Source: Methanofollis sp.
Lineage (GTDB): Archaea; Halobacteriota; Methanomicrobia; Methanomicrobiales; Methanofollaceae
Direction: 5' to 3'
DNA length: 37,545 nt
Assembly: GCF_028702905.1 (NCBI RefSeq)
Contig: NZ_JAQVNX010000012.1
Coordinates: forward strand, 1 to 37,545
Shown: positions 5,060 through 36,915 of the stretch, piece after piece
How positions within the stretch are numbered: the stretch's first letter is position 1
Layout of the letters: the number at the start of each line of letters is the position of its first letter
Program-made: the position numbers and the translations under genes
Notes under the pieces: model-generated
Seen by the model: the letters and a program-made list of their open reading frames with translations, nothing else
Databases searched by the model: none
Told to the model about the DNA's origin: nothing

Positions 5060-5078
5060 CGGCACAGGTCTCTCGTCA

Positions 5079-10294: not shown

Positions 10295-10321
10295 AGAAAA
10301 AACGGAGGGCGGCAAAAGAAC

Positions 10322-12978: not shown

Positions 12979-12983
12979 CACGT

Positions 12984-13829
12984 ATGACAAAACTTGAAAA
13001 CAAGATTGATTTCGCAGTTGTTGTGTCGGTGAAGAATGCCAACCCGAACGGTGATCCACTGAATGGAAACCGACCGCGCGAAAATTATGACGGATGCGGT
13101 GAGATCTCGGATGTGTGTCTGAAACGAAAGGTCCGGAACCGAATGCAGGATATGGGGCAACCGGTTTTTGTGAAGTCCGATGACCGCAGTGATGATGGCT
13201 TTAAGAGTTTGAAGGAGCGGGCGGATGCCTGTAAGCCATTTGCCGATGCCATTAAGAAGAAAAATGTGGAGAAGGCAAAGGAGATTGCCTGTAGTGAGTG
13301 GCTTGATGTCCGAAGTTTCGGCCAAGTGTTCGCCTTTAAGGGGGATGATGCGTCCATCGGTATTCGTGGCCCGGTTTCGGTTCATCCGGCATTCAGTGTG
13401 AATTCAATAGATGTGACGGCTCTGCAGATTACGAAGAGCGTGAACAGCGTGTCTGGTGCGAAGAAGGCGTCGGATACAATGGGCATGAAGTACCGCGTGG
13501 ACTTCGGGATGTATGTTTTTTACGGAAGCATCAACTGCCAGCTCGCAGAAAAAAACGGATTTTCAACGGAAGATGCGGAGAGTATCCGTAAGGCTCTAAT
13601 TACTCTGTTCGAGAACGACAGTTCATCGGCCCGTCCGGAGGGCAGTATGGAGGTGTGCAGGGTGTTCTGGTGGAAACACAATTCCAAGAGCGGGCAGTAT
13701 TCCTCCGCGAAGGTTCACCGGACTCTGCATGTGCAGTCGAAGACCGATGCGCCGAAGTCCGTCGAGGATTATGAGATCATGGTAGATAGGCTGGAAGGTC
13801 TTGAACCGGAGATCTTTGAGGGAGCGTAA
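12984..13829 (+). CDS. cas7: Cas7c (Csd2), type I-C Cascade backbone
   Basis: A 281-residue Cas7 of the Csd2 type that polymerises along the crRNA. The N-terminal FAVVVSVKNANPNGDP is the typical RRM strand and loop. RSFGQVFAF and IGIRGPVSVHPAFSVN follow, and HVQSKTDAPKSVEDYE lies near the end. ATG 12984 comes 5 nt after the cas8c stop, with GGAGAG at 12969-12974 as ribosome binding site. It is the last gene of the operon. The usual cas4-cas1-cas2 and repeat array do not follow; a hairpin and a truncated unrelated gene do. Confidence 0.93.
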   Translation: MTKLENKIDFAVVVSVKNANPNGDPLNGNRPRENYDGCGEISDVCLKRKVRNRMQDMGQPVFVKSDDRSDDGFKSLKERADACKPFADAIKKKNVEKAKEIACSEWLDVRSFGQVFAFKGDDASIGIRGPVSVHPAFSVNSIDVTALQITKSVNSVSGAKKASDTMGMKYRVDFGMYVFYGSINCQLAEKNGFSTEDAESIRKALITLFENDSSSARPEGSMEVCRVFWWKHNSKSGQYSSAKVHRTLHVQSKTDAPKSVEDYEIMVDRLEGLEPEIFEGA

Positions 13830-21124: not shown

Positions 21125-21223
21125 GCACCATCCCCCTCCCCCTCCATCAAAGTCGCCGGCAATAAATAGGTGCCGGGCGCTTCCCCGGCACATTTATCTG
21201 GCCGCACCACCCCAGTCCGCGCC

Positions 21224-21925
21224 ATGTTCATCATCGGTCACCGGGGTGCCCGGGCGGCGGCCCGGGAGAACACACTGCATGCAGTGGAGGTCGGTATCGC
21301 ATGCGCCGATTATGTCGAGGTCGATGTCCGTTTGAGTCGTGAGGGTATGCCTGTTGTCATACACGACGCCACCCTCGACCGTACGACCGACGGCAGCGGG
21401 GCCGTATGCACGTACCTGCTCTCAGAACTGAAGGCGCTCGACACCGGAGACGGAGAACAGATCCCGGGTCTTCAGGAGGTCGTCTCTCTGGTCACCGGGG
21501 GCGGTGCGGCCTGTTTGTCGAGGTCAAGGAGAAGGGGAGTGAGGAGACGGTCTGCCGCGTGCTGGACGGCTATGATCCTGAAAAACTCTTAGTCGTATCA
21601 TTCCACGAAGAGAGAATTAAAAAAGTGAAGGGCCTCCTGCCCGGTGTCAGGACAGGTTTCATTTTCTCGCGAGGCGAGGGAGATCCCCTCTCGCTCGCCG
21701 TTTCGGCCGGTGCTGATGCGGTCCTCCTCAGGAAAGACCTCATCACGTCTTCCCGGATCGATCAGGCACATCGGCAGGGCCTCATTGTAATCTCCCGGGT
21801 GCCTGAATATAGAAGACGAGGCCCTGGCGGCACAGGACGCCGGTGCCGACGGCCGTGCATCAGACGACCCTTGCAGGATGAGAGCGTTTCTCAGGGACGC
21901 GGAGAAGACCCGGAGACACGAATAA
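21224..21925 (+). pseudogene. Glycerophosphodiester phosphodiesterase, twice frameshifted
   Basis: The first frame from ATG 21224 has the GDPD catalytic elements: GHRGARAAARENTLHAVEVG, an E-x-D in VEVDVRLSREG and VIHDATLDRTTDG. At a five-G run (21497-21501) the frame is lost. The protein continues in the next frame as GLFVEVKEKGSEE, then LLVVSFHEERIKKVK and SAGADAVLL. Near 21803 it shifts again, with the expected C-terminus EDEALAAQDAGADG ending at TAA 21923-21925. The intact family hydrolyses glycerophosphodiesters to an alcohol and glycerol 3-phosphate. CATTTATC at 21191-21198 is a TATA box at leaderless spacing. Both shifts are small indels, so sequencing error cannot be excluded, but two make decay more likely. 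Confidence 0.82.
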
Positions 21926-22109
21926 TGATGCTGGCCATGGAAACTTCGCGGGAGTGAGGTCATTGGGGCTATCTGGTCTGCCCGTCCAGAGGGCAGGGAA
22001 AGGTGAGAAATAATCTCAGTCATGGGAGAATAGCCTGTGAATCGCCATTATGGAGTGCACACTGGATTCGGGCACATTCATCAGGGAATCGACCCGGGTG
22101 CTGAGAAAC

Positions 22110-22203: not shown

Positions 22204-23229
22204 ATGCTGGGAATACTCAGAGAAGATCCTGAAGTCTGGGCCCTCTATACACGGAGTGAAGAATATACTCCCGGCTTCCGCGACCGGTACGATCGTTTCC
22301 CTTTCTATCTCAGCAAGAACCGGAATATTTTCGAGCCGGTCGCCTCACGGTATCTTTTTGACCGGGGCTTCTGCCCCGAGTACCCTGACGGCAGGCAGTT
22401 CGCGCTCTGCCTGACACATGATATCGATACTGTGTACAGTTCTCTCCATGGCAAAGGGGTGAAAGCATTCAATGCCATCCGAGACGGTCGTTTCTCCGAT
22501 GCGAAACGATCCCTGATGCAGATGAAGACGAAGAGGTTGCCCTGGTGCAATTTTCAGGACATTATCGCGATGGAACAGGCCTATGGTGCCAGATCAACCT
22601 TTTTCTTTCTCGTTCTGGACCCTGACAGCGAGGATTATGCCTATGACATCGAAGACCTGGGGCCGGATCTTGGCATGATCGTGGACCAGGGACACGAGGT
22701 CGGCCTCCATGGGGGCCACCAGACCTATAATAATCCCGACGATATCAGGGAGAAAAAAAGACGGCTGGAAAAATTGCTGAATGAACCGATAGTAGGTTAT
22801 CGGAACCACTATCTCAAGATTAAAGTGCCTGAGACCTGGGAATATCTCTCAAAGGCCGGGTTTCAGTATGATTCGACGATGGGATTTGCCGATTGCGCCG
22901 GTTTCAGAAATGGGATGTGTTATCCATTCAAACCGTTTGACCTCAGGAATAACCGGCCGATGGACATCGTCGAGATCCCTCTCGCGATCATGGACAAGAC
23001 GCTCTTTTATTACATGCATCTTGACCTGGACCTCTCGTGGGAGCTGACCCGGCAGATTATTGAGAATGTGAAGCAGTGCCATGGCGTTCTCAATGTCCTC
23101 TGGCATAACAACTGCATGTCAGGGGACTATCTGAAACTGTATATAAAACTTATGGATTATTGTTCAAAGGAAGGTGCATGGATGACATCGGGCAAGGAGC
23201 TTTATGATTGGTGGTCCAGGTATCTCTGA
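22204..23229 (+). CDS. Polysaccharide deacetylase family protein
   Basis: A 341-residue cytosolic-looking protein (no signal peptide) with the NodB-fold deacetylase motifs: T71-H72-D73-I74-D75 in LCLTHDID (motif 1, the Asp base and metal ligand) and EVGLHGGHQTYNN with H169 and H172 (motif 2). It continues with VGYRNHYLKIKVPETWEYL (motif 3-like R) and VLNVLWHNNCMSGDY near the end. Such enzymes remove N- or O-acetyl groups from sugars; as the first gene of a surface-polysaccharide region it may act on a lipid-linked or nucleotide-linked precursor. The start is fixed by an in-frame TGA two codons upstream, and GGAGG lies 11 nt before. The last 26 bases overlap the next gene. Confidence 0.85.
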   Translation: MLGILREDPEVWALYTRSEEYTPGFRDRYDRFPFYLSKNRNIFEPVASRYLFDRGFCPEYPDGRQFALCLTHDIDTVYSSLHGKGVKAFNAIRDGRFSDAKRSLMQMKTKRLPWCNFQDIIAMEQAYGARSTFFFLVLDPDSEDYAYDIEDLGPDLGMIVDQGHEVGLHGGHQTYNNPDDIREKKRRLEKLLNEPIVGYRNHYLKIKVPETWEYLSKAGFQYDSTMGFADCAGFRNGMCYPFKPFDLRNNRPMDIVEIPLAIMDKTLFYYMHLDLDLSWELTRQIIENVKQCHGVLNVLWHNNCMSGDYLKLYIKLMDYCSKEGAWMTSGKELYDWWSRYL

Positions 23230-24202
23230 CATCTCGGTCCGGCGTCTTGGCATGGACGAACTCCCTGCATGGGACGCGGTCGTGAGATCTGCACCTGAGG
23301 GTTCGATATTCCATTCCAGTCCGTGGCTTTCGGTCATGAGTCGTGCACGGGGGATGGACTATAAAATCTACGGGTGTTTCGATGAGGGAAAACTTATCGG
23401 AGGGTGTCCTCTTTTTTTCTATCAGATCGGAGGGCTGCTCCATATCGGAACATCGATCCCACCGATGAATCCCTATGGCGGGATCGTTTTTCTGTCTCAG
23501 GAGGGGAGCAGTGGCCGTGCCCGCGAGCAGAGGCGGCAGGATGTGACACGGTCCCTGATCGGGTATATGAATGCGGAGGATTTTGACAGCCTTCATATTG
23601 TGAACGCTCCGGAGTGGAGAGATATCAGGTGCTTCATCTGGGAAGGGTGGCAGACCAATGTGTTGTATACGTACTATATCGACCCGGCCGCGGTCAGTTT
23701 GTCGAGAAATGCAAAGAGGAATGTGAAAAAAGGAACAGAAACCGGGATTGTAATCCGAAAATCAGAAGACATCGACACATTCTATAAACTCTTCGAGCGT
23801 ACTTTCCAGAACAGGGGCATGGCGCCACCCCTTCAGAAACCCCTGTTCCGCAGCATATTCGAGACCTTCCACGCACGCGGGAACTGCGAACTGGTCACCG
23901 CGCAGAACCAGGATGGTGAGATGATCAGCGGGGATTTCTATCTCTTCGACAACCGGAGGGTCTACCGCTGGGCCGCCGCGACCAGTCACGAGTCCAAGGC
24001 TTCCGGGGCCTCCTTCCTCCTTCTCTCCGAGTCCATCCGGGAGTTCAAGGAGAGGGGATACCGCGAGATGAACCTGATGACCGCAAATATTCCCTATCTT
24101 GCCGAGTTTACCCAGAATTTCAGTCCGAGTCTCGTCCCCTATTACGGGGTGACGAAAAAGTCCGCGTACCTGAAACTCTCTTCCGCGATCATGGGTACCT
24201 GA
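23204..24202 (+). CDS. FemAB/GNAT-fold (Acetyltransf_6-like) acyl- or aminoacyltransferase
   Basis: A 332-residue protein made of two GNAT-like halves. The C-terminal half has ISGDFYLFDNRRVYRWAAA, then the characteristic SHESKASGASFLLLSESI acyl-donor loop and helix, and RGYREMNLMTANIPYLAEF. This pattern is that of FemAB-like and PF13480 proteins found in exopolysaccharide and cell-wall clusters, which transfer amino acids (from aminoacyl-tRNA) or acyl groups to sugars or peptides. It overlaps the deacetylase by 26 nt, with an AAGGAG site just before ATG 23204, so the two are co-translated. A natural pairing is deacetylation of an N-acetyl sugar followed by re-acylation of the free amine; this is inference. 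Confidence 0.8.
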   Translation: MIGGPGISDISVRRLGMDELPAWDAVVRSAPEGSIFHSSPWLSVMSRARGMDYKIYGCFDEGKLIGGCPLFFYQIGGLLHIGTSIPPMNPYGGIVFLSQEGSSGRAREQRRQDVTRSLIGYMNAEDFDSLHIVNAPEWRDIRCFIWEGWQTNVLYTYYIDPAAVSLSRNAKRNVKKGTETGIVIRKSEDIDTFYKLFERTFQNRGMAPPLQKPLFRSIFETFHARGNCELVTAQNQDGEMISGDFYLFDNRRVYRWAAATSHESKASGASFLLLSESIREFKERGYREMNLMTANIPYLAEFTQNFSPSLVPYYGVTKKSAYLKLSSAIMGT

Positions 24203-24348
24203 CAGGGCCCATCATCCTGTTTTTTGCTCTGGAGATATCGATCTCTCGCCGGTCCGGAGTTTTTCTCGACCCCCTTCGGTCGTCCCTCATTCTGGATTGG
24301 CCCCGGAAAGATAAGACAGGGATCCTGATGAGGAGGGTTGCTATTCCC

Positions 24349-24404
24349 CGGCTATGTAGAATCAGGCATGAGTCGGGAGCACGCCTCAGGCATACCGCAT
24401 GAAA
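24349..24404. repeat. Intergenic repeat R1, copy 2
   Basis: This matches 17132-17187 at 49 of 56 positions without gaps, in the same orientation. Confidence 0.75.
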
Positions 24405-24453
24405 ATTGTTCTGAGGAGTTCGTCTGGTCGACGTGCCTTCTCGCACGCTTGCG

Positions 24454-24472
24454 CCGGGGGCAGAGCCCCCGG
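24454..24472. repeat. G/C hairpin downstream of R1 copy 2
   Basis: CCGGGGGC (24454-24461) pairs perfectly with GCCCCCGG (24465-24472) across a three-base AGA loop. Its flank GGTGCGAAGATGTAGGAAGG resembles the hairpin flank at 17418-17437. Confidence 0.65.
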
Positions 24473-24663
24473 TGCGAAGATGTAGGAAGGCGGGTGAGTC
24501 ACGTTCATACCCAGAAAATGGGAGGGGTTCTACAAAGCATATTCCCCCTCTGTCCGGGTGTGGGGCGCGAGCGCTCGTGAACTTGAGTACGGAAATACAC
24601 CTGCAGCATTTTCATGGAGCCCCCTGAAAAGAATGTTTCTGGAGGGGGTCTACGCACCATTTA

Positions 24664-26379
24664 TTACTCGATCCGACTCTCTCCGGCCTCCGGACAGGAG
24701 CCCTGGAGTCCGTCGTCAGGGATGATAAGACTCAGATAATTTTGTATGATAAGGCCGTTCAGTCTGATCTCAGGGGCTGCGCTTTCCTGGCCGACCAGTG
24801 AGACAAGGGAGGGGTATTGCATCAGCACCTCAGGAAGGGGCAGGCGGTTTTCTTCCAGCATGGCAAGAATTTTGTTGTACCATGATGTTTTTTGTCCCCC
24901 TGTACAGATGAGGTGCATGAGAAAGGACGGCCCGTGTCTTGCATCTGAGAGGAAGTTGTTCAGGGGCGTCTCAAATCTGCTCGTACATTCTATCTTGCGA
25001 AGCCCCTCATATTTTCCGACAAACAATCTCTCCCGGGCATACCTCTTGTACAATTTCTGTCCGATGCGGTGGTGGAGGGGTACATGCAGGTAAAAATTGA
25101 TCAACTCGGCATCCCATAAGGGCAAACTCCAGGAATAGCCGAAAAATTCGTACACACGAACCGCGTTTACGATGAACTTTGCCTGGCGTTCGTAGAAATC
25201 AAAATATTCAATGGCGTTTGCACAGGAGTCATTGTCGTGGACCCTGATATCCCCGCACCCCAGTGCAATCTTCTGTGAATAGAGAGAACGAAGACCATTG
25301 TGGTTCCAGCCCAGCAGGGAGTAATGTTTTGTGAGAAGATCATCTATCACTTTTTCCTGCGAATACTCCCCGTCTTTCCGGTACGATGCCGGGATATGCG
25401 ACCCGCTGAGCATATCCCCCGCGTGCCCCGGCACAAAGACTGCATTGTCCTGAACAATGCCCTCTTTTTTCAGCGTATGCACGGCAAAAAAATCCTGAAT
25501 ATGAGGTTGCGACGCAAGGTTTCCGCTATATTTCTGGTACGTCCTCATCTCAGGGGACGTGTAGCACTCTTCCCACGCGTCCTGCGTGTACTCGATGAAA
25601 TGCCAGGGGTACCCCAGTGCCTCCGCCACTTTTTGACTTGCTCTGCTCTCCCTGTTGGTGGGGTGCCCGTAATTATAGCAGACAACATCTTTCGCCCCCA
25701 CAATTCGGAGCATTGCGGCGATGATCCGGGAATCGAGTCCGCCGCTCAAAGGAACGACAATCTGTTGCCCTCTCCCGGCAGTGGATGCCATCAGCCTCGC
25801 GAAGGCCCGGTACAGGATTTCGTCCAGGGCATTCATCAATGCTGTCCCGTCCTCCTGGTAGTAGTCGCCATGAAGGTACCGATAGTAGGGGGTTGTACGG
25901 ATCGATCCCGTTCTTTTCTCTAAGACAAGGATCTCGCCTGCATTCGTCTGCTTCAGGCCCTGAAAAAGCGTGCCTTCGCTGGTCACATACCCTGTCACCA
26001 GAAATTCTGCCGCACTCTCAGGGTCCAGTGCCGGGTGCATGATGGACCTGATGACATTTGCATCGTCTGATACGATGATCTGGTCCCTGTTTGTGGCATA
26101 AAAAAGGGGGATACTCCGTGTACGGTCAGATATGCAGAAGAGGTGGCCGTCACTTTCGATGATGATGCAGAATTCGCCGATGATCCCGGATGCTATCTCT
26201 CTGAGTCGACCAATCTCCGGAGCGGCGGGATATGACCGTATTATACCCTCGATCATCTCCGAATCAGACAGGACTTCCGTGCCCCGAAAAAATGTCCCTT
26301 TGTAATAGCAATGGATCCCCCTGGATTCGGCCTGCTTCCATGGGTAATATGGATTATTCAGGAGTAGTTCCAGATGCAT
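24664..26379 (-). CDS. AsnB-like amide synthetase lacking the glutaminase cysteine, copy 1
   Basis: A 571-residue protein with the two-domain shape of glutamine-dependent asparagine synthetase. The N-terminal Ntn-fold half (about 1-165) is short and begins MHLELLLNNPYYPW; it has no Met-Cys-Gly start, so the nucleophilic Cys needed to release ammonia from glutamine is missing. The C-terminal half carries the ATP pyrophosphatase loop VPLSGGLDSR at 209-218, a YNYGHPTNRES segment, SGNLASQPHIQDFFAV and FVPGHAGDMLSGS, which fit acyl-adenylate formation. A dead glutaminase domain with a live synthetase domain is the arrangement of beta-lactam and carbapenam synthetases, which join an amine already in the substrate. 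The start has a GGAGAGAG site and a TATA box at 26434-26442. It is paralogous to the 27778 gene. Confidence 0.85.
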   Translation of the reverse strand: MHLELLLNNPYYPWKQAESRGIHCYYKGTFFRGTEVLSDSEMIEGIIRSYPAAPEIGRLREIASGIIGEFCIIIESDGHLFCISDRTRSIPLFYATNRDQIIVSDDANVIRSIMHPALDPESAAEFLVTGYVTSEGTLFQGLKQTNAGEILVLEKRTGSIRTTPYYRYLHGDYYQEDGTALMNALDEILYRAFARLMASTAGRGQQIVVPLSGGLDSRIIAAMLRIVGAKDVVCYNYGHPTNRESRASQKVAEALGYPWHFIEYTQDAWEECYTSPEMRTYQKYSGNLASQPHIQDFFAVHTLKKEGIVQDNAVFVPGHAGDMLSGSHIPASYRKDGEYSQEKVIDDLLTKHYSLLGWNHNGLRSLYSQKIALGCGDIRVHDNDSCANAIEYFDFYERQAKFIVNAVRVYEFFGYSWSLPLWDAELINFYLHVPLHHRIGQKLYKRYARERLFVGKYEGLRKIECTSRFETPLNNFLSDARHGPSFLMHLICTGGQKTSWYNKILAMLEENRLPLPEVLMQYPSLVSLVGQESAAPEIRLNGLIIQNYLSLIIPDDGLQGSCPEAGESRIE

Positions 26380-26433
26380 ATGCTCTCTCCGTACCGGAAG
26401 TCCCAGAGATATCGGTGTGAAGTCCGCCTGATG

Positions 26434-26442
26434 CTATAAATG
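26434..26442 (-). promoter_or_regulatory. TATA box ahead of AsnB-like copy 1
   Basis: CATTTATAG on the minus strand is 55-63 nt before ATG 26379, leaving a leader of about 30 nt that includes the GGAGAGAG site. Confidence 0.4.
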
Positions 26443-26549
26443 TGTTTTCTTCCCGTCTTCGAGGATCGTGATTGTTCCCTCTCATGACAGCAACAATCTT
26501 TCCTGAAAAGCGGGTTCTATCATCGGGAGGATTGGGGGCCGGAAAAATA

Positions 26550-27707
26550 TTAATCGGGAGTGTCCAGCAGATTTAACTGGCCCATCACTCTTTCCGGGAT
26601 GCCAAGCGGATCCTGCTCACCCATCCTGTCCGCCCACCCGGCATGTTTGCAATCGCAGTCGAGATCGGCAAATACCTCTGTGTTGAAATCCAGGTTATGC
26701 ATGTCGATCCGTTCAAGGATCTCCCTGTCACATGTCCCGCAATTTCTGGCGACGTCCAGCGACTGGACCGAGTACTGGGACGGACTGATGTACATGTTGA
26801 TCTCGTCCCCGTACATCCCCTTATACTGCCGTATCACCTCAAGGACGCTCCATAACATGGGTGGAGAGTAGAGGCCCTTCTTCCAGAGTTCGTGAACGAC
26901 CGTGTTCCTCTCGACCGTTGTAACCTCGAGGTCCATCCTGCGGATGCCGCGTGCATACAGATAACCGATCGTTCCGACCACATCGGAGATGGCCTCCTGC
27001 TCGGTTAAGAAGGGTGGTTTCAGCAGAAGGAGCGGTTTGAAGGATACGCCAGAGTCCTTCATCTTTGCAAGATAATGGTCGTAGTTCCTGGCAGTAAAGC
27101 CCTTGTTGATGCAGAGGTTCATGATCTCAGGATTGGCCGACTCGAATCCGAACAATATTTCCAGTTCTTTATCAGGGAGATGTTTTTTAATCCTCTGTGC
27201 CATTTCAATGGAGTCGTCATTGATCCGGGACTCGATGACCACCCTCCTGATGCCCGGGAAACTGTTGAGGACGGACGAGATCTTTTTCTGGGCTTCGAAT
27301 GAGATCTCCCTCTCGTCAAGGAAGTTCCCGTCATTGTATAATGCGACGACCGGATAGTCGTTCAGGTCCACCGTATCGGCGACATGCTCGATCTGGTTGA
27401 TATAGTCCTCGTCCGAGACCTTGACCCCCTGGTTGGTGCTGCAGTAAAAACCGCACATCGTGCACCCACCACTTTCCCGGACCCATTCACACCCTGTTGA
27501 CCGAAGAAAAATCACAAGGCGCCTGCAGGGTTTCCCGTCCATGTGGCCGACTCTCTCGTCGGTCCCGATAGGAAGCGAGTAATCAATATGATCTGTTTTA
27601 ACGGTCTCATGGCCCCGTACATTCCGGGCCAGATCCTGAACCCGTTGGAGTGCTTCGTTATATCCTGAAGAATCCGGGACCTGTATCCTGTCTGACAAAT
27701 CTGCCAC
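26550..27707 (-). CDS. RaSEA-like radical SAM protein (TIGR01210/Elp3-related)
   Basis: A radical SAM protein of about 385 residues. The cluster cysteines are in the run TGCEWVRESGGCTMCGFYC, spacing C-x8-C-x2-C, as in the RaSEA/Elp3-like group rather than the canonical C-x3-C-x2-C. FGFESANPEIMNLCINKGF is the SAM-binding G-E-S region. Further on come VERNTVVHELWKKGLYSPP and LWSVLEVI, typical of RaSEA, the enzyme that works with ArcS to make archaeosine in tRNA. A C-terminal NCGTCDRE...DCDCKHAGW cysteine cluster is also family-like. But it lies between two AsnB-like genes in a surface-polysaccharide region, so a different substrate is possible. I prefer GTG 27707 (A+T-rich promoter at 27736-27760) over TTG 27734. 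Confidence 0.75.
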   Translation of the reverse strand: MADLSDRIQVPDSSGYNEALQRVQDLARNVRGHETVKTDHIDYSLPIGTDERVGHMDGKPCRRLVIFLRSTGCEWVRESGGCTMCGFYCSTNQGVKVSDEDYINQIEHVADTVDLNDYPVVALYNDGNFLDEREISFEAQKKISSVLNSFPGIRRVVIESRINDDSIEMAQRIKKHLPDKELEILFGFESANPEIMNLCINKGFTARNYDHYLAKMKDSGVSFKPLLLLKPPFLTEQEAISDVVGTIGYLYARGIRRMDLEVTTVERNTVVHELWKKGLYSPPMLWSVLEVIRQYKGMYGDEINMYISPSQYSVQSLDVARNCGTCDREILERIDMHNLDFNTEVFADLDCDCKHAGWADRMGEQDPLGIPERVMGQLNLLDTPD

Positions 27708-27735
27708 GTGCCCCCCCCGACCATCCCATATCAAT

Positions 27736-27760
27736 ATTTATATTTATAATTATCTCATGG
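27736..27760 (-). promoter_or_regulatory. A+T-rich promoter of the radical SAM gene
   Basis: On the minus strand ATAATTATAAATATAAATAT lies between the AsnB-like copy 2 stop and the radical SAM start. It suggests that the radical SAM gene can be transcribed on its own, although it also lies only 70 nt after copy 2. Confidence 0.45.
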
Positions 27761-27777
27761 ATGAAAAGGGCGAAAAA

Positions 27778-29544
27778 TCATCGCGGAGTCTCTCTGGAAT
27801 AATCAGAAATGCCGACATCCCAGATACATTCTTTTTTGCTTTTCACGTCTCCTTCGTCAAGACGCGGAATATCTCCACACTGCAGGAGATATTCAAGGTT
27901 CAGGAGACTGATGATTGTTAATGCAGACGGATCGTGCCTGCGCTGCATCACCATCGTCCTGACGAGAGGGTACCTGCTGCTGCTGATATCTGTCATAAGA
28001 GAATTCTTTTTGAGCAGCATGGACTGGAGGTCCCGGTACCACAAGGCATAGATCCCCCTGTCCGCGATACGGTCGTATATCAGTCTGAGTTTGTTCTGGG
28101 CCGAGATCCATCTCTGAGGGAGGGAATCGTCTATTTTGGTCGTACACTCGATATATTTTAATTCTTTCAGGTCGCCGGTGAAGAGCTTCTCGCGCGCGAA
28201 TAGTTTGTACAATCTCTGCTTCATCCGGTACTGCAGGGGAACTTTCATGAAGAATTCCATGAATTCATTGTCCCAGAACGGGATCCTCCACTCATAGCCG
28301 TAATACTCGTACGTCCGAACCGAGTTGATGATATATTTTGCCTGTCTCTCTCTATAATCAAAAAATTCTATTGCATTTGCCCCTGACTCCCTGTCATCGG
28401 CACGGACTGCAGGGATAATGGACCGGATCCTCTCTTCAAAGATTTTCGTGAGCAGTCCGTCGTTGCCCCAGTCCCAGTAGGAATGGTGGTCGGCAAGAAC
28501 GTAGTGTATGGCCTCTTCCGAGGTGCATCCCCGCCTGATATTATATGATGGGGGTATTTTACACCCGGAGAGCACGTCTGCACCGTGGCCCGGGACAAAA
28601 ACCGATCCATCAGGGATTATGTCGAGTTTTTTCAGTTCCCTGACGGCGGCCATGTCCTGAATATGAGGGAGGGCAGTGAGATTTCCGCTGTACCTGAGTA
28701 CTTCCACCAGTTCAGGTGAGCAGTACATCTCTTCCCACTTTGCCGCGGTATATTCGACGAAATACCAGGGGTACCCCAGTGCATCGGCCACCTCCCTGCC
28801 GAAACGTGATTCCCGGTTGTTTCTGATCCCGTACGTGAAACAGGTTACGTCCTCGACTCCGAGCCTTTTGAGCATCGCCACAAGGATTCTGGAGTCGAGT
28901 CCGCCGCTCAAGGGGACGACGATATGTTTCCCCTGTTCGACGGTGGTTTCGATGAGGCGGTTGAAGATGTTCGTGCAGACACGATCCAGCTGCTCGATCA
29001 TCTGCTTTTCGGAGGCCGGGAAAAATTCTCCGTGCTGATAGCAATAATGGGGATACAGGTCCGTTTTTCCCGTGATCTTATCATATAAAAGAAATTCCCC
29101 TGCCTGTATCTGTTCTATCCCGTGGAAGAGAGTGCCTCTGCCGGTGACAAAACCGGTTACCAGGAATTCGGCCGCTCGTCTGTCATCCGGTCCTGTGGCC
29201 ATTGCCTCTTTCAGGGCATGTGCGTCGTCGGAGATGAGGAGTTTCCCCGGAATTTCAGAATAATAGATCGGAATGCTCCGGATCCTGTCGACGACACAGA
29301 GCACGCGATCAGGTGCATCAATGACGATCACATATTCTCCGTTCAGGTGGCTGAGCAGTCCCGCGAGATCCTTCCTGTCGGTTACGGGCCCGGATATCTC
29401 CTGGGAAAGACGTGATGCTATCTCTTCGTCGTCTGCCAGGCGGTTATCGACGAATATGTGGCCTTTGATAGAGCAATCCGCTTTATCCGTCTCTACATGT
29501 CTCCACGGTGAAAAATGGTTGGATAGACGAATTTCTACCTGCAT
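27778..29544 (-). CDS. AsnB-like amide synthetase lacking the glutaminase cysteine, copy 2
   Basis: A 588-residue paralogue of the 24664 gene, alignable from end to end. The start MQVEIRLSNHFSPW again lacks the Cys2 nucleophile of class II amidotransferases, while the middle of the N-domain keeps SDDAHALKEA and an AAEFLVTGFVTGRGTLFHGI run shared with copy 1. The synthetase half has VPLSGGLDSR at 210-219, FTYGIRNNRES, SGNLTALPHIQDMAAV and FVPGHGADVLSG. GGTGA six bases before ATG 29544 is a good ribosome binding site. Two copies that differ mainly near the C-terminus (about 480-588) suggest two related substrates or a two-subunit enzyme. It is upstream of the radical SAM gene on the same strand. 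Confidence 0.85.
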   Translation of the reverse strand: MQVEIRLSNHFSPWRHVETDKADCSIKGHIFVDNRLADDEEIASRLSQEISGPVTDRKDLAGLLSHLNGEYVIVIDAPDRVLCVVDRIRSIPIYYSEIPGKLLISDDAHALKEAMATGPDDRRAAEFLVTGFVTGRGTLFHGIEQIQAGEFLLYDKITGKTDLYPHYCYQHGEFFPASEKQMIEQLDRVCTNIFNRLIETTVEQGKHIVVPLSGGLDSRILVAMLKRLGVEDVTCFTYGIRNNRESRFGREVADALGYPWYFVEYTAAKWEEMYCSPELVEVLRYSGNLTALPHIQDMAAVRELKKLDIIPDGSVFVPGHGADVLSGCKIPPSYNIRRGCTSEEAIHYVLADHHSYWDWGNDGLLTKIFEERIRSIIPAVRADDRESGANAIEFFDYRERQAKYIINSVRTYEYYGYEWRIPFWDNEFMEFFMKVPLQYRMKQRLYKLFAREKLFTGDLKELKYIECTTKIDDSLPQRWISAQNKLRLIYDRIADRGIYALWYRDLQSMLLKKNSLMTDISSSRYPLVRTMVMQRRHDPSALTIISLLNLEYLLQCGDIPRLDEGDVKSKKECIWDVGISDYSRETPR

Positions 29545-30139
29545 GTGCGGTCACCATGACCATCATTTATTTCCTGACATCCAGAGGGGAGGTACATGCT
29601 ATAATGGCACGTACGCACGGGTTCTGGCGGTGTGCGGCGATGTCCCCCGGTTGTTTTCTCTCTGCCGGTGGAAATCTCGTGTGGTGGTTCTGACAGACAG
29701 AAAGGAACATCATGCCGGGTGCATTATCCAGTTCAATGCCGGATCTTTCACCAGCCTTATGCCCGCCTGTCCCTTGATCGGTATGGTCCGCCATCTGCTC
29801 AAACCGGCATGTATCTCTTCTGTCTTCCCCTGTTTTGTAATGCCTATACCAATGCTTTATTTATGGCTTTCGCTGGCGGCACCTGCCGGCCCCCCTTTCT
29901 TTGTTGTCGGGATTCGGGCGCAATATTTCACCCAATCTTTCGGGAAATACATGATCGAAAAAATCGGCATATGGCAATATTTCCAGAATATATTTTATCT
30001 CATCCGGGAAATTCCGGCCAGGCGTCATACTGACACTCCTGTTCTATTTATACTTTTTTCAGTCAATCCCGGCAACAGACATCTCCGCAACCTGTATCAG
30101 GATGTCCAAAAATTCCCGGACTACATCCCCTGACCGGGC
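29545..30139. other. Gene-free region between glycosyltransferase and AsnB-like copy 2
   Basis: Nearly 600 nt without a gene I can support; long open frames on the plus strand have unnatural codon use and match nothing. On the minus strand AGTATAAATAG (30043-30053) and GAAATAAATGA (29563-29573) are TATA-like. The second is at leaderless distance from the AsnB-like gene; the first would give a long leader of about 470 nt. Confidence 0.5.
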
Positions 30140-31372
30140 TTATCCCCGGTGTCCCCGGCCATTCCGCGAACGACGTGACACGACCTCCGAGCAGACATCT
30201 CCGACTTTCCGGGCGACGACCTCCCAGCTGTTGTTTTTTCTGACATACTCGCACCCGGCCCTCCCCATTTGCGTCCTCTTCTCGCGGTCGGCCAGGAGCA
30301 TCGTGACGGCCGAAGCAATGGCCTGCGGGTTCTCGGGTCTGACCGGGATACCTCCTCCTGAGAGGTCGAGCAGTTCTCTGACACCCGCGATGTCGCTTGC
30401 TACGACAGGTTTTCCGCATCCCATGTATTCATACACTTTCAGGGGAGAAAGACCGATTTTGTCATTTCTATCCCTGATAAACGGTGCGACGCAGACATCG
30501 CTGGCAGTGACATAGTCGGGTACGCTCTCATAGGCCACCCTCCCGGTGAAGTGGATTCTATCCCTGACCCCAAGTTCCTCTGCCAGGGTGGTGCACTGTT
30601 CTCTCATCACGCCGTCGCCGACAAGCAGGAAGCGGGCCGCCGGGCAGGTGTCGCGGATCAGGGGAATGGCCCTGACCAGGTCGGGCAGGCCCTGCCAGGG
30701 GGCAAAATTGCCGGTGAAACAGATATATCTTGCCGAGAGGTCCAGGCCCAGTTTTTTCCGCGCCTCTTCCTGGTCGCCCGGCCTGAAGATCCCGGTGTTC
30801 GCCCCGTTTTCGATAACGGTGATCTTTTTCTCGTCCACCCCGTACTCCTCGACCAGGTGACGCTTTATCCCCGCCGTCACGGCGATGATCGCATCGGCTC
30901 TTTTGAGCAGGTACTGTTCGGAGACGGTACAGAGGGTTCGGTTCATCCATGCGGCAATGCCTGATGAAGAGTGGTTGTCATCGATAAGCCTGATCTCGTC
31001 CCCGAAAAAGCCGTTGACCTCACATATGATCGGCGTGCCGTGGATCCTTCCGGAAAACAGATCTCCCAGGACTCCAAAGAACGAGTTTCTGGTATAGATG
31101 ACGTCATATCTCCGGGAAGAGTCCTTGCAAAGAAGCGATCTGACAATACTCCCGTACAGTCGAAGATTACCCCGGTCAGGTATGGAGGAGCAGAAGATAT
31201 GGTCCATATGCACAAAGGGCAGGTCGACGGCCGAAAAGATATGGAGCCTGTTGTGCCCGGCCGCGAGTCCGGCGATGAGTTCGCAGCTGTGAGTCACCTT
31301 CCCGTTGGCACCTTCGGATGATTTCAAAGGTTCTATGAACAAAATATCCAGGCCGCTCCCGTCTGTCGGCAT
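30140..31372 (-). CDS. Glycosyltransferase family 4 protein
   Basis: A 410-residue GT-B enzyme. The N-terminal acceptor domain includes LDILFIEPLKSSEG and, later, a YDVIYTRNSFFGVLGDLF strand. The donor domain has FTGNFAPWQGLPDLVRAIP, a FLLVGDGVMRE strand, and the GT4 motif KVYEYMGCGKPVVASD (E-x7-E region that holds the nucleotide-sugar). It probably adds a sugar from a nucleotide donor to a growing surface glycan on the cytoplasmic side. I take ATG 31372 as start because a TATA box (31397-31404) is at leaderless spacing; an upstream in-frame ATG at 31423 would include the TATA box in the gene. It is the first minus-strand gene of the cluster and divergent from the beta-helix gene. Confidence 0.85.
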   Translation of the reverse strand: MPTDGSGLDILFIEPLKSSEGANGKVTHSCELIAGLAAGHNRLHIFSAVDLPFVHMDHIFCSSIPDRGNLRLYGSIVRSLLCKDSSRRYDVIYTRNSFFGVLGDLFSGRIHGTPIICEVNGFFGDEIRLIDDNHSSSGIAAWMNRTLCTVSEQYLLKRADAIIAVTAGIKRHLVEEYGVDEKKITVIENGANTGIFRPGDQEEARKKLGLDLSARYICFTGNFAPWQGLPDLVRAIPLIRDTCPAARFLLVGDGVMREQCTTLAEELGVRDRIHFTGRVAYESVPDYVTASDVCVAPFIRDRNDKIGLSPLKVYEYMGCGKPVVASDIAGVRELLDLSGGGIPVRPENPQAIASAVTMLLADREKRTQMGRAGCEYVRKNNSWEVVARKVGDVCSEVVSRRSRNGRGHRG

Positions 31373-31396
31373 CACACGCCGTAAGTGTGCGTCGCA

Positions 31397-31404
31397 ATAT
31401 AAAG
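31397..31404 (-). promoter_or_regulatory. TATA box of the glycosyltransferase gene
   Basis: CTTTATAT on the minus strand, 25-32 nt before ATG 31372. Confidence 0.5.
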
Positions 31405-31647
31405 GTAACCCTATCTGGAGCATCCAGTGCTAGCTCTTCTTAAATCCACTGATAGAGTGATAAATTGATATTATAATCCGAGGGTGTACGAAAAAACTGA
31501 GCGAAAAGTTCTTAATTGACTAGCATAATAATGGGGTCTGCCTGCTGACGCGATGGGCACTCGTGTCGTGATCTCCCGACCTTACCGGGGATCGAAACGC
31601 AGGTCTGTCAGTGTGCACCGATTGTCCTTCCGTGGGGGTGAATACAG

Positions 31648-33066
31648 TTGATATCTGCCGCTAAACAAAAGATCATTATTCTGCTGGTAGCATCCATCCT
31701 TGTTCTGACAGGTATTGCCATTATACTTTCCCAGATCCCTTCTACCCCCCCAGAAGACAGCGAGAACGTCACCCCAGAACCTGAACGTCCTCCATGGCCC
31801 TCGGGGCCGGTCGTCGTTGTTGCCTCACAAACAAGCGTAGACGAGATCCCGTACTCCCCGGATTTTGTCTGCGACGGCCAGGACGATCAAAAAGAGATCA
31901 GGGCCGCCTTCCGCGCCATTCCTTCGCAGGGCGGCACGGTCGTCCTGACAGACGGGACATTTTACTGTACAGACTCGATCGATATTCCGACCAACTCCAC
32001 TCTTGTGGGGCGTGGCCCCGATATGACAGTCCTGAACTATCTCTCCGCAGGGTCGGTCAGGATGAATTCAGGGAAGGACATACGCCTCTCGAACGTCGGG
32101 ATCACCGGCAAAGGAAGTGTCTATATCAGCACGTCAGATGTTGATGTCGAGGATGTGGAGGTCTTCCACGTGGACAACTCCTATATCGCGGCATTCATGA
32201 TCTACGCGGCCAACGAAGTGATCAAAAATGTCAACTTCGTCAATTGCAGGGCCGTGGACGTCGATCGATGGGGTTTTGTCCACTCGGGTGAGGGAAAACC
32301 GAACATTGTGCGGGACTGTACCTATACGAACTGTCAGGCGATCAACTGCGGCCGGTATGACCAATACTACGGTGTCGATCACCAGTATGCCGAGGCCTGG
32401 GATGTGGGTTTCGATATTGCCGAGTCTCTCCAGAGCGCGGACAATATCTCCTATGTCGGGTGCCACGCCGAAGGGTGCTGGGAGTCCGGGTTTCATGCCG
32501 AAGATGCTGTCCGCCTAACCAATATCAGACTCATTAATTGCACAAGTACTGATAATGCACAGAAACAGAAGATTGGCAGAGAAGAGGTGGACTTTGGTGC
32601 CGGATTTCTGGTGAATGAGGGAATGTACCTTGAGAACTGCACCTCTGAAAACAATGCAGTCGGTTTTCACTGTTCAAGGGCCGAAGATAGTTACCTTTTC
32701 AATTGTCGCGATATTGGGTCGGAGAAGGGTTTTTTGATGCTGACCATCGGAGAAAAAGGTCTGCACCTGCGCTCATGCGCGACCGAAGGTACCGGCGAAC
32801 CGGTCTATGTCTGGACGGGACCGACACTGAACATCACTCTGGAGGATATGATGATCCGATCAAAGACCCCGTGCCCGACCGCCGGGATCACCGTGAATGC
32901 ACTGGTAAGGGACCCGGACAGGATCCTTGTCCGGGACAGCGTAATTTCAGGATATCATTCTGGTATCGTCAACCGGGCGGAGAATCGGGGACGTGTGAGG
33001 GTCGAGAATGTGTCGGTGATCCGGTCTGAGAAAAATTTTATAAATTGCAATGTGATCACTATATAA
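31648..33066 (+). CDS. Membrane-anchored right-handed beta-helix surface protein
   Basis: A 472-residue protein with a short basic N-terminus, one membrane helix (about 8-28, KIIILLVASILVLTGIAII) and an acidic proline-rich stalk (PSTPPEDSENVTPEPERPP). The rest is a parallel beta-helix made of short repeated strands ending in N, C or D turns, for example VEVFHVDNSYIAAFMIYA and NCQAINCGRYDQYYG. No retained signal-peptidase site is obvious, so it is probably a type II membrane protein with the helix outside. The start is TTG: GGGGGTGA at 31634-31641 is a near-perfect ribosome binding site six bases before it. It is paralogous to residues 27-440 of the 33484 gene. Beta-helix proteins of this type often bind or cleave polysaccharide; no catalytic residues are proven. 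Confidence 0.82.
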   Translation: MISAAKQKIIILLVASILVLTGIAIILSQIPSTPPEDSENVTPEPERPPWPSGPVVVVASQTSVDEIPYSPDFVCDGQDDQKEIRAAFRAIPSQGGTVVLTDGTFYCTDSIDIPTNSTLVGRGPDMTVLNYLSAGSVRMNSGKDIRLSNVGITGKGSVYISTSDVDVEDVEVFHVDNSYIAAFMIYAANEVIKNVNFVNCRAVDVDRWGFVHSGEGKPNIVRDCTYTNCQAINCGRYDQYYGVDHQYAEAWDVGFDIAESLQSADNISYVGCHAEGCWESGFHAEDAVRLTNIRLINCTSTDNAQKQKIGREEVDFGAGFLVNEGMYLENCTSENNAVGFHCSRAEDSYLFNCRDIGSEKGFLMLTIGEKGLHLRSCATEGTGEPVYVWTGPTLNITLEDMMIRSKTPCPTAGITVNALVRDPDRILVRDSVISGYHSGIVNRAENRGRVRVENVSVIRSEKNFINCNVITI

Positions 33067-33483: not shown

Positions 33484-36400
33484 ATGAGATTGGTATCACT
33501 ATTAACACTAGTTGCGGGATTGGCCCTACTGACCTGTCTTGTTCAGGCAGCAGGTGCAGCATCCCTTGTTGTTGCAGCAAGCGACAGCAGCAACTTAGTA
33601 AAAAATCAGGCAGATTATGTCTGTGACGGCACGAGCGATCAGGTTGAGATTAACAAGGCACTTGCTGCCCTCCCCTCGGGCGGTACGGTCATTCTCTCCA
33701 GGGGTCACTATACCCTGAACGGCAATGTCGTCCCGAAAAGTTCCACGAACCTGAAAGGGGAAGGCGAAGATGCGACATTTCTGAATTTTGTCTCATCCGC
33801 AGCAGTCTCTCTCTCCAGCGTGAGCAATGTAAAAGTATCCGATCTCCAGATAAACGGGAAAGGACGCGTTTACATCAGTTCGTCCCACCACATCATTGAA
33901 AATGTGAAGGTGTACAATGTCGACAACTCGTACATGGCCGCCTTCATCATCTACGCGTACAGCAAGACGGTCGAAGACATTCAGTTCATCAACTGTAAGG
34001 CGATCGACTGCGACCGCTGGGGCTTTGTCCACAACGGTGGCGGCTGGGGTACCCCGTCGATCGTCAAGAACATCAGGTACACGGACTGCCAGGCCATCAA
34101 CTGCGGCAGGTACGACCAGTACTACGGTGAGAGGCACCAGTACGGCGAGGCCTGGGATGTCGGCTTCGACATCGCCGAGTACATCGACACCGTCCAGGAC
34201 GTCACCTACACCAGGTGCGTCGCCGAGGGCACCTGGGAGTCCGGTTTCCACGCCGAGCCACCCCCGAAGCTGAAGAACGTCAGGCTCATCGACTGTGTCA
34301 GCCGTGACAATGGCCAGAAGCAGAAGACCGGCGCTTCCCACCCCGACTTCGGTGCCGGTTACATCGTCATGGAGGGCATGACCCTTGAGAACTGCATCTC
34401 CGAGGACAACATCGTCGGCTTCATGTGCGACTACCCGGACGGCAGTTCCATTAGCGGGTCCAGCGACAAGGGCTCGAAGATCGGCGTTCGCATCCTCAGT
34501 GTCGGTGCGGGCGGCCTGAAGATCACGTCATCTTCGGTTGCGAACTCCCCCGAGCCGGTCCTCTTCCTTGCAGGCGGCTCCAAGGTGAACATGAACGGGC
34601 TGACCATCTCGTCCGGCACCTCCCGGTCAACATCGGGCATCAGGGTGCAGTCGAAGGTCTCGGCCCCGTCGTCCATCGTGGTCGCAAACTCGAAGATCTC
34701 GGGATATGCCACCGGTATCAACAACCAGGCCTCTGCAAACGGTCTGGTGCAGGTCTCCAATGTCGAAGTGACCGGCGCGAAGACCAACTTCATCGGCACC
34801 AAGGTCATTGGTCCGGTGATCCCGCCGACACCGACTCCGACTCCGACACCGACACCGATCCCAACTCCAACACCCACACCAACCATCACACCAACCCCGA
34901 CACCCACGGCTGAGCCCACACCCGAACCCACGCTCGAACCGGACAACGGCAAGGATGTGCTGCTGATCACCGGGAACTCGTACCTGAGCCCCGGCGACAA
35001 AGCTGTGAAGGATCACCTCGAGTCGAAAGGCTACACGGTGACGACGAAAGAAGACGACCTTGTTACCGCGGCATATGCGGAGGGCAAGGACGTCGTGATC
35101 ATCTCGTCCAGCTTCAACAGCGGGACTGTCGGTGCGACGCTCAAGGACGTTGCCGTGCCGGTGATCTCCTGTGAAGCATGGCAGTACGACGACCTCAAGA
35201 TGACCGGCACTGCGGTCGGCACCGACTACTCCGCGGCTGCAGGTCAGACGCAGGTGGCCATCGCCGATGCGTCAAGCCCCCTCGCCGCCGGCCTGGAAGG
35301 CACCGTGAGAGTCACGGGCACTGCCGGTTATGAGATGTACGGCCTTCCGACTGCAGGTGCAACGAAGGTCGCCACCGTCGTCGGCAAGCCCGACCAGGTG
35401 ACGGTCTTCGCCTATGACACCGGCGCCGAGATGGTCGGTATGAAGGCACCCGCACCCCGTGTTGGATTCTTCCTCCACGACCAGGTCGCAGCCAGCACCA
35501 CACCCGAAGGGTGGGCGCTCTTTGACGCAGCTGTGAAATGGGCGGCTGAAGCCGGCGGGTCGACGGAAGTCCCCCCGACCCCCGAACCCACACCTGAACC
35601 CACACCCGAACCCACACCCGAACCCGGCGAACCTGCAAAGGTGCTGCTGGTCATCGGGAACTCGTACCTGAGCCCTGGCGACAAAGCGGTGAAGAACCAC
35701 CTTGAGTCCGCGAGCTACACGGTAACGACGAAAGAAGACGACCTTGTTACCGCGGCAGATGCGGAGGGCAAGGACGTCGTGATCATCTCGTCCAGCTTCA
35801 ACAGCGGGACTGTCGGCACCACTCTCAGAAACGTCGCCGTGCCGGTGATCTCCTGTGAGGCATGGCAGTATGACGACCTCAAGATGACCGGCACTGTGGT
35901 CGGCACCGACTACTCCGCGGCTGCAGGTCAGACGCAGGTCGCCATCGCCGATGCGGCAAGCCCGCTCGCCGCCGGTCTGAAAGGCACCGTGAAAGTCACC
36001 GGCACTGCCGGCTATGAGATGTTCGGCCTTCCGACTGCAGGTGCGGCAAAGGTCGCCACCGTTGTCGGCAAGCCCGACCAGGTGACGGTCTTCGCCTATG
36101 ACACCGGTGCCCAGATGGTCGGCATGAAGGCCCCGGCACCTCGTGTCGGGTTCTTCCTCCACGACCAGGTCGCAGCCAGCACCACACCTGAAGGGTGGGC
36201 GCTCTTCGACGCAGCCGTGAAATGGGCAGCGGGTGCGGACGGTTCGACAGACGTAACCCCGACCCCCGAACCCACGCCGGAACCGACCCCTGAACCCGGC
36301 GAATCTGCAACAGTGTTGTTCATCACCGGGAAAACAACCCTGGAAACCGGGGACCTCGCCGTCAAGAAGCACCTTGAGTCCGCGGGCTACACCGTGACCG

Positions 36401-36915
36401 CAAAGGATGACGACCTTGTCACTGCAGCAGATGCCAAGGGCAAGGACGTCGTGATCATCTCATCCAGCCTCAACAGCGGGACTGTCGGCACGACGCTCAG
36501 AAGTGTTGCCGTGCCGGTGATCTCCTGCGAGGCCTGGCTCTATGACGACCTCAGGATGACCGGCACCTCCCGCGGCACCGACTACTCTGCGGCTGCAGGC
36601 CAGACACAGGTGGCCATCGCCGATGCGGCAAGCCCGCTCGCCGCCGGTCTGAAAGGCACCGTGAAAGTCACCGGCACTGCCGGTTCAGAAATGTACGGCC
36701 TTCCAACTGCAGGTGCAGCAAAGGTCGCCACCGTCGTCGGCCAGCCCGACAAGGTGACGGTCTTCGCCTATGACACCGGCGCCCAGATGGTTGGCATGAA
36801 GGCCCCGGCACCTCGTGTCGGGTTCTTCCTCCACGACCAGGTCGCAGCCAGCACCACACCCGAAGGGTGGGCGCTCTTCGATGCGGCCGTGAAATGGGCG
36901 ATCAGCAACGCGTAA
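33484..36915 (+). CDS. Large secreted protein: beta-helix domain plus three tandem Rossmann-like repeats
   Basis: A 1143-residue protein. Signal peptide about 1-26 (MRLVSLLTLVAGLALLTCLV then AAGAAS). Residues about 27-440 are a right-handed beta-helix paralogous to the upstream membrane-anchored protein (shared NCQAINCGRYDQYYG, AEAWDVGFDIAE-type and TWESGFHAE blocks). A PTPTPT linker occupies about 447-488. Then come three repeats, residues 492-687, 720-915 and 944-1139, each 196 codons with no indel. They begin VLLITGNSYLSPGD, contain DVVIISSSFNSGTVG, PVISCEAWQYDDLKMTG and PRVGFFLHDQVAAST, and are separated by PTPEPTPEP linkers. The alternating beta/alpha pattern suggests a ThuA/flavodoxin-like fold (inference). 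There is no C-terminal anchor. The A+T-rich promoter and C-ending codons suggest high expression. Confidence 0.88.
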   Translation: MRLVSLLTLVAGLALLTCLVQAAGAASLVVAASDSSNLVKNQADYVCDGTSDQVEINKALAALPSGGTVILSRGHYTLNGNVVPKSSTNLKGEGEDATFLNFVSSAAVSLSSVSNVKVSDLQINGKGRVYISSSHHIIENVKVYNVDNSYMAAFIIYAYSKTVEDIQFINCKAIDCDRWGFVHNGGGWGTPSIVKNIRYTDCQAINCGRYDQYYGERHQYGEAWDVGFDIAEYIDTVQDVTYTRCVAEGTWESGFHAEPPPKLKNVRLIDCVSRDNGQKQKTGASHPDFGAGYIVMEGMTLENCISEDNIVGFMCDYPDGSSISGSSDKGSKIGVRILSVGAGGLKITSSSVANSPEPVLFLAGGSKVNMNGLTISSGTSRSTSGIRVQSKVSAPSSIVVANSKISGYATGINNQASANGLVQVSNVEVTGAKTNFIGTKVIGPVIPPTPTPTPTPTPIPTPTPTPTITPTPTPTAEPTPEPTLEPDNGKDVLLITGNSYLSPGDKAVKDHLESKGYTVTTKEDDLVTAAYAEGKDVVIISSSFNSGTVGATLKDVAVPVISCEAWQYDDLKMTGTAVGTDYSAAAGQTQVAIADASSPLAAGLEGTVRVTGTAGYEMYGLPTAGATKVATVVGKPDQVTVFAYDTGAEMVGMKAPAPRVGFFLHDQVAASTTPEGWALFDAAVKWAAEAGGSTEVPPTPEPTPEPTPEPTPEPGEPAKVLLVIGNSYLSPGDKAVKNHLESASYTVTTKEDDLVTAADAEGKDVVIISSSFNSGTVGTTLRNVAVPVISCEAWQYDDLKMTGTVVGTDYSAAAGQTQVAIADAASPLAAGLKGTVKVTGTAGYEMFGLPTAGAAKVATVVGKPDQVTVFAYDTGAQMVGMKAPAPRVGFFLHDQVAASTTPEGWALFDAAVKWAAGADGSTDVTPTPEPTPEPTPEPGESATVLFITGKTTLETGDLAVKKHLESAGYTVTAKDDDLVTAADAKGKDVVIISSSLNSGTVGTTLRSVAVPVISCEAWLYDDLRMTGTSRGTDYSAAAGQTQVAIADAASPLAAGLKGTVKVTGTAGSEMYGLPTAGAAKVATVVGQPDKVTVFAYDTGAQMVGMKAPAPRVGFFLHDQVAASTTPEGWALFDAAVKWAISNA
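34957..35545 (+). repeat. Domain-encoding repeat unit 1 of the large surface protein
   Basis: A 589-nt unit, equal in length and phase to units 2 and 3. Long stretches, such as the one covering DDLVTAA...SSSFNSGTVG, are identical to unit 2 at DNA level. Confidence 0.85.
35641..36229 (+). repeat. Domain-encoding repeat unit 2 of the large surface protein
   Basis: Same length as unit 1 and its closest relative over the first half. The second half shares more bases with unit 3 (for example GATGCGGCAAGCCCGCTCGC at about 35949). Confidence 0.85.
36313..36901 (+). repeat. Domain-encoding repeat unit 3 of the large surface protein
   Basis: Same length again. The start is the most diverged (TTLETGDLAVKKHLES instead of SYLSPGDKAVK), while the second half is nearly the same as unit 2. 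Confidence 0.85.

Follow-up and report, generated by a model that had tools for sequence, protein, structure and literature searches.

In the Wbp/Vim pathway of Porphyromonas and Tannerella, WbpA, WbpB, WbpE and WbpD build a diacetamido-uronate, the putative deacetylase VimE acts together with VimA, which adds serine or glycine, and with WbpS, which amidates, and the product of VimE, VimA and WbpS is 2-N-seryl-3-N-acetylglucuronamide (PMC7468200). In P. gingivalis this enzyme set makes the linking sugar for type IX cargo, and exosortases adjoin it elsewhere; VimA matches the XrtA FemAB family, and deacetylase, AsnB and glycosyltransferase (GT) genes adjoin one another in PEP-CTERM loci (PMC7468200). 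The exopolysaccharide (EPS) cluster psc1 of Rubrivivax has the composition nodB-FemA-GT-WbpS-CapK (PMC3684757), and in Methanococcus the glycans include GlcNAc3NAcA, a mannuronic acid with threonine at position 6 (ManNAcA6Thr) and acetamidino groups (PMC2952790). In tRNA modification, ArcS of T. kodakarensis and others takes lysine, not NH4+, Asn or Gln, and RaSEA turns preQ0-Lys into archaeosine (PMC11298593). Here we analyze a locus of Methanofollis sp. in which relatives of the first and last of these systems lie together: a deacetylase, a FemAB-like transferase, two AsnB-like synthetases, a GT4 family glycosyltransferase and a RaSEA-like radical S-adenosylmethionine (SAM) enzyme. The locus is located in contig C12 (NZ_JAQVNX010000012.1) of a 2.4-Mb genome, and the whole of that 37,545-nucleotide stretch is referred to below as the window. 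A preliminary description of the window had named six open reading frames (ORFs) of these kinds, and all six were found where it had placed them.

A second RaSEA clade in glycan clusters of two methanogen genera

The RaSEA-like assignment of the preliminary description holds: the radical SAM protein of the window scored 210.3 bits against TIGR01210, just missing the cut-off of 212.15, and its Methanoculleus counterpart (L058, 9352-10434) reached 229.1 bits and passed it. A true RaSEA is encoded elsewhere in the Methanofollis genome (contig C6, 320.9 bits), which rules out the window protein as the only RaSEA of its genome, and true RaSEA is kept in all 12 carriers of the paralogue (this genome and 11 others) among 61 relatives. 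Across 394 genomes of the phylum, the scores were bimodal, at least 725 or at most 206 bits with none between, and the high-scoring group was confined to Methanofollis and Methanoculleus. In a scan of 84,980 species with two peptide patterns, which distant relatives could escape, proteins at least 45% identical were found only in Methanomicrobiales or in 'Euryarchaeota archaeon' records with matching gene order. In a phylogenetic tree, the 31 paralogues and the 27 true RaSEAs fell on either side of a split with support of 100/100. Between these groups, 33 positions are fixed alike, including the cluster cysteines; M93-C94-G95, C332, C335 and C362 are retained in both, and C82 and C91 are invariant in alignment A1. 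A further 21 positions are fixed within each group but differ between them; some lie in the FTSGS/YNDGN segment and others cluster around D268-E275. Because of these 21 differences, the substrate and possibly the reaction of the paralogue are likely to have changed, and we read the protein as a RaSEA paralogue with a new substrate. A Foldseek search with its structural model returned Elp3 and lysine 2,3-aminomutase at TM scores of only about 0.4-0.5, which we do not read as functional.

The paralogue is linked to FemAB and glycan genes in both genera. Its gene directly follows that of the second AsnB-like synthetase (AsnB2) in all four Methanofollis genomes that carry it, while in more than 20 loci of Methanoculleus or related genomes it occupies one fixed place, as far as the contigs reach, in the order sugar-nucleotide genes, GT4, two-domain oxidoreductase, radical SAM gene, then CapK/PaaK-like ligases, FemABs and PGA_cap. 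A 402-aa gene of the Methanoculleus cluster had no match in a Pfam search. Among the 61 relatives, a FemAB protein of the PF13480 family is encoded within 10 kb of the radical SAM gene in 12 of 12 carriers, and such a protein occurs anywhere in the genome in 22 of the 49 non-carriers (Fisher p 6e-4, uncorrected for kinship); G014 and G019, two Methanoculleus genomes that lack the paralogue, have no PF13480 protein. Between Methanofollis and Methanoculleus, the FemAB proteins share only about 25% identity, so that their association with the radical SAM gene cannot be put down simply to a single well-conserved pair. The adjacency of AsnB-like and radical SAM genes, which the preliminary description took as diagnostic, describes the four Methanofollis genomes but does not extend to Methanoculleus, where the radical SAM gene sits with CapK/PaaK-like ligases and other FemABs. 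An obligate pair is ruled out, since AsnB-like genes occur without an adjacent paralogue (same-genus genome G003, Methanoculleus genome G378, genus g76, and contig C53 of the Methanofollis genome itself) and the paralogue occurs without AsnB in Methanoculleus.

RaSEA, treated as an equivalog for archaeosine synthesis in tRNA, has in these two methanogen genera a second clade within surface-glycan clusters, and automatic annotation would label at least some of its members RaSEA, the Methanoculleus copy passing the cut-off. That same passing score, and homology over most of the length, would also suit a second archaeosine enzyme acting on tRNA, with its neighbors incidental. We regard this as very unlikely, given that true RaSEA is present in every carrier checked, that the paralogue lies in glycan clusters of both genera on its own side of the tree, and that the ArcS complement is equal with or without it (one full-length and one shorter PF17884 protein). 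A dedicated ArcS2 partner is ruled out by the same two PF17884 proteins being present with and without the paralogue in 12 of 12 genomes. The window itself encodes a short ArcS-domain protein (3-527, minus strand; PF17884, 66.9 bits), full ArcS being encoded elsewhere.

AsnB-like synthetases with a deleted glutaminase site

The two AsnB-like proteins of the window are about 40% identical to each other. Their lack of the glutaminase cysteine, noted from the beginning, extends to the whole family: in an alignment of 11 members with E. coli AsnB, none has Cys1 or the NGEIYN segment, and the position of E348 (E. coli AsnB numbering) is His in every sequence; ordinary archaeal AsnB relatives have Gln there. 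R49, N74-G75-E76 and D98 are also lost, as are the first ~40 residues, including the RGPD motif, in 10 of the 11 members; the G378 sequence is instead extended at its N-terminus, perhaps through a misassigned start codon. Set against TIGR01536, the cysteine nucleophile and the glutamine-binding residues are absent from all 11 and the PP-loop is present, its SGGLDS motif being invariant in the family and full in both window copies. As modelled with AlphaFold2, AsnB2 adopts an AsnB-type fold, and the structures matched by the model include AsnB, TsnB9 and the beta-lactam and carbapenam synthetases. Judged by alignment, these proteins form a group with a deleted glutaminase site and His at E348, which is a new element.

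That the genes encode ordinary asparagine synthetases or generic amidases, clustered by chance, is extremely unlikely. The fold and the PP-loop are retained, as such a reading would expect, but the missing residues rule out ordinary asparagine synthetases, and the synteny and constraint of the genes are conserved.

A search of 384 genomes of the phylum at E below 1e-180 placed the family in nine, which belong to Methanofollis, to Methanoculleus (G378 only) and, in five cases, to genus g76, possibly Methanosarcina. The neighbors of the g76 genes (L154-L158) include two proteins without Pfam matches, the Pfam search having been run on L154. A third glutaminase-less AsnB of the Methanofollis genome lies in another sugar locus on contig C53 (L055, 2853-7342), 1.6 kb from a radical SAM/SPASM gene and near sugar-nucleotide and flippase genes, making a second neighborhood of AsnB and radical SAM genes.

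Organization and conservation of the locus

The positions of the genes and of the two beta-helix genes beside them are given in Table 1. The overlap of the deacetylase and FemAB-like ORFs remarked on in the preliminary description amounts to 26 bp and is retained in three further genomes. AsnB2 lies 43 bp upstream of the radical SAM gene, which starts with TTG (an alternative GTG is possible ~27 bp further in). The GT4 gene lies 595 bp upstream of AsnB2, and the deacetylase and FemAB genes converge on those of the minus strand; we therefore speak of a locus rather than a single operon. The ratio of nonsynonymous to synonymous substitution rates (dN/dS) against same-genus orthologs is 0.07-0.24 for all six genes, which are therefore constrained by purifying selection. 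The locus is retained whole or in part in five same-genus genomes, so that the co-occurrence proposed for its genes stands for the full set in three (this genome, G009 and G010) and is incomplete in two: G011 has the set without AsnB1, and G003 lacks both the radical SAM gene and AsnB1 but retains the deacetylase, FemAB and GT4 genes and a single AsnB. Identities of the deacetylase orthologs are 97, 85 and 51%.

Table 1. Genes of the putative glycan locus and adjoining beta-helix genes in the window.
Product	Position	Strand	Family matches and motifs
Deacetylase, CE4-type polysaccharide/amino-sugar, VimE-like	22204-23229	+	NF053580, TIGR03006; motifs THDID, LHGGH, GYRNHYL
FemAB/GNAT-type acyl- or aminoacyl-transferase, VimA-like	23204-24202	+	PF13480, TIGR03019
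AsnB1, AsnB-like synthetase 1, truncated glutaminase-type N-domain	24664-26379	-	PF00733 E 2e-12
RaSEA-like radical SAM enzyme, second RaSEA paralogue	26550-27734	-	TIGR01210 210.3 bits
AsnB2, AsnB-like synthetase 2	27778-29544	-	PF00733 E 4e-18
GT4 family glycosyltransferase	30140-31423	-	PF13692 E 1.6e-30; TIGR04063
Pectate-lyase-like beta-helix protein, hydrophobic N-terminus	31648-33066	+	PF12708 E 1.4e-4, under gathering score
Larger beta-helix protein, PTPT linkers, three ~200-aa repeats	33484-36915	+	PF12708 E 3.5e-6

The smaller beta-helix gene is syntenic with the locus, with an ortholog at the equivalent place in G003, G009, G010 and G011, and the larger has orthologs in G009 and G010. 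The product of the latter (1143 aa) combines a beta-helix domain with three near-identical repeats linked by PTPT/PEPT and is probably surface-exposed.

Proposed function of the locus

The deacetylase matched the VimE family NF053580 at 113 bits (E 1.3e-32), not reaching the cut-off of 440, and the XrtA deacetylase family TIGR03006 at E 3.5e-8. The second protein is FemAB-like, as had been proposed, scoring 69 bits against PF13480 (E 6e-19; gathering cut-off 22, passed) and 59.5 bits against the XrtA FemAB family TIGR03019 (E 2.8e-16; cut-off 260, not reached); it is the sole PF13480 protein found in its own genome, and the same holds for G009 and G010. The GT4 protein matched the XrtA-system GT family TIGR04063 at E 2.7e-49, under the cut-off. 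The AsnB-like proteins scored about 40-42 of 816.9 bits against TIGR03108, the WbpS-type XrtA/PEP-CTERM amidotransferase, and lack a working glutaminase site. Sequence searches against solved structures returned nothing for the radical SAM, FemAB or beta-helix proteins and only weak, implausible DNA polymerase matches for the deacetylase.

Since four of the five enzyme types match families of one known kind of pathway (VimE/XrtA deacetylase, FemAB, amidotransferase, GT4), we consider it moderately probable that the locus serves to modify a surface glycan in the Wbp/Vim manner, making an aminoacylated, amidated amino-uronic sugar. The deacetylase would free one amine on an N-acetylated amino-uronic sugar, onto which the FemAB-like enzyme would load an amino acid or acyl group. 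The AsnB-like ligases would adenylate a carboxylate, either C6 of the uronic acid or that of the amino acid, and couple it to an amine not derived from glutamine, be it free ammonia or an amino acid; their substrate is probably a sugar conjugate. The RaSEA paralogue would then modify the amino-acid part of the conjugate by radical SAM chemistry, and the GT4 enzyme would transfer the sugar into the glycan. Deacetylation, aminoacyl or acyl transfer, adenylation and glycosyl transfer are suggested by homology; the identity of the sugar, the radical step and the choice of amine by the AsnB-like enzymes are suggested by analogy. An amino acid as nucleophile would have a parallel in the threonine-bearing sugar of Methanococcus, and RaSEA-like C-N cleavage of some kind is a possible, rather doubtful, form of the radical step. 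The logic put forward in the preliminary description (deacetylate, re-acylate, amidate) is thus borne out in part, by homology and by the Wbp/Vim precedent (PMC7468200). The locus is real, conserved and partly explained. Four of its enzyme types follow a known ground plan, and its new elements are the AsnB group and the RaSEA paralogue found within glycan clusters.

Several observations weigh against a Wbp/Vim-type function. The deacetylase, FemAB and AsnB scores fall under the curated cut-offs (113/440, 59.5/260 and ~42/817 bits). The window contains no Wbp sugar-nucleotide genes, and the best match in the genome to NF040723 (archaeal UDP-GlcNAc 3-dehydrogenase, WbpB-like; the sole Wbp family searched) reaches 139.6 of 450 bits and lies on another contig. 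The segment of E. coli AsnB around K449 is unaligned in the AsnB-like family, the chemistry of which may itself differ. In the five genomes of genus g76, the glutaminase-less AsnB stands alone near argS and eRF1, outside glycan clusters, so that a link to glycans is not general in the family. Finally, the Methanoculleus loci, being a single syntenic block, amount to one event only.

The loss of the usual nitrogen source by the AsnB-like enzymes also bears on a different reading, in which an amino acid, perhaps lysine, is the nitrogen donor: the AsnB-like enzyme would couple the amino acid to an adenylated uronate and the RaSEA paralogue would cleave the N-C bond to leave a primary amide or amidine. 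ArcS and RaSEA perform like chemistry on preQ0 in tRNA (PMC11298593), AsnB2 and the radical SAM gene are close neighbors wherever Methanofollis has the paralogue (4/4 genomes), and the Methanoculleus paralogue adjoins other carboxylate-adenylating ligases (CapK/PaaK-like). With each partner occurring without the other, and with 21 fixed positions departing from true RaSEA, we hold the reading to be unlikely. Likewise unlikely, if anything a shade more so, is an ammonia-free route to glycan amidation, in which the AsnB-like enzyme attaches an amino acid, by analogy lysine, to the carboxylate of a sugar and a neofunctionalised RaSEA removes the carbon skeleton, so that amide or amidine nitrogen stays behind; were it true, it would be the archaeosine trick moved from tRNA to a surface sugar.

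Vim-type enzyme sets make linking sugars in P. gingivalis and adjoin exosortases elsewhere (PMC7468200), and the Methanofollis genome encodes an archaeosortase-family protein, so that the locus might make an amino-acid-bearing sugar for the attachment of surface proteins by an archaeosortase. The archaeosortase, however, lies on another contig and is present in 12 of 12 same-genus genomes, against 5 of 12 for the deacetylase-FemAB pair; the two are not co-distributed, and we judge a linking sugar quite unlikely.

Other features of the window

Type I-C CRISPR effector genes (cas3, cas5c, cas8c, cas7c) occupy 7805-13829; no cas1, cas2 or cas4 was seen adjoining them, and no array in the flanking stretches checked. 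Two tandem ORFs (3377-7052, plus strand; 560 and 558 aa) resemble AMP-forming acyl-CoA synthetases, as assigned by sequence reading alone. A glycerophosphodiester phosphodiesterase (21170-21957, plus strand) is apparently split over two frames (140 + 183 aa) and is a single 250-aa ORF in G011; the split reflects either a broken gene or a sequence error.

Comparison with known systems

The Methanofollis locus shares with the Wbp/Vim systems (VimE, VimA, WbpS, VimF) the joint presence of a CE4-type deacetylase, a FemAB/GNAT-type aminoacyl transferase, an AsnB-family enzyme and a glycosyltransferase. It differs in scores far under the cut-offs, in the lost glutaminase site of its AsnB proteins, in the additional RaSEA-like radical SAM enzyme, and in having neither adjacent wbp genes nor a tie to a sortase. 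The XrtA/PEP-CTERM EPS loci (TIGR03006, TIGR03019, TIGR03108, TIGR04063) have the same deacetylase, FemAB, AsnB and GT4 types, but the Methanofollis locus is archaeal and has no adjacent exosortase; with CapK-bearing EPS clusters such as Rubrivivax psc1, the likeness lies in the CapK-like ligases of the Methanoculleus version. The literature searched held no EPS locus of the XrtA or CapK kind with a RaSEA paralogue, and searches for uronic acids amidated with amino acids and for exopolysaccharide of Methanofollis were likewise without useful result. The initial impression that no described pathway has this set of enzymes therefore fails for four of the five types, which Wbp/Vim and XrtA loci contain, and stands for the radical SAM enzyme, which is new.

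The glutaminase domains of beta-lactam and carbapenam synthetases are inactive. These enzymes and TsnB9, AsnB-family members with an altered amine donor, share the AsnB fold and intact PP-loop with the Methanofollis proteins; the latter differ in having lost the Gln-site segments and the first ~40 residues, in carrying His for E348 and in a K449 segment that does not align. ArcS/RaSEA archaeosine synthesis uses the same radical SAM family, whose MCG cluster motif and C-terminal cysteines the paralogue keeps; the paralogue nevertheless forms a separate clade beside true RaSEA, with 21 diagnostic positions changed, a glycan neighborhood and no ArcS neighbor.

With scores under the cut-offs, the proteins of the locus are relatives rather than members of the Vim/XrtA families, and on these comparisons the locus is Vim-like in logic and not a member of the pathway. 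If its radical step acts on an aminoacyl sugar, radical SAM chemistry would be put to a new use in glycan assembly, and the Vim-like logic of sugar aminoacylation would reach into the archaea.

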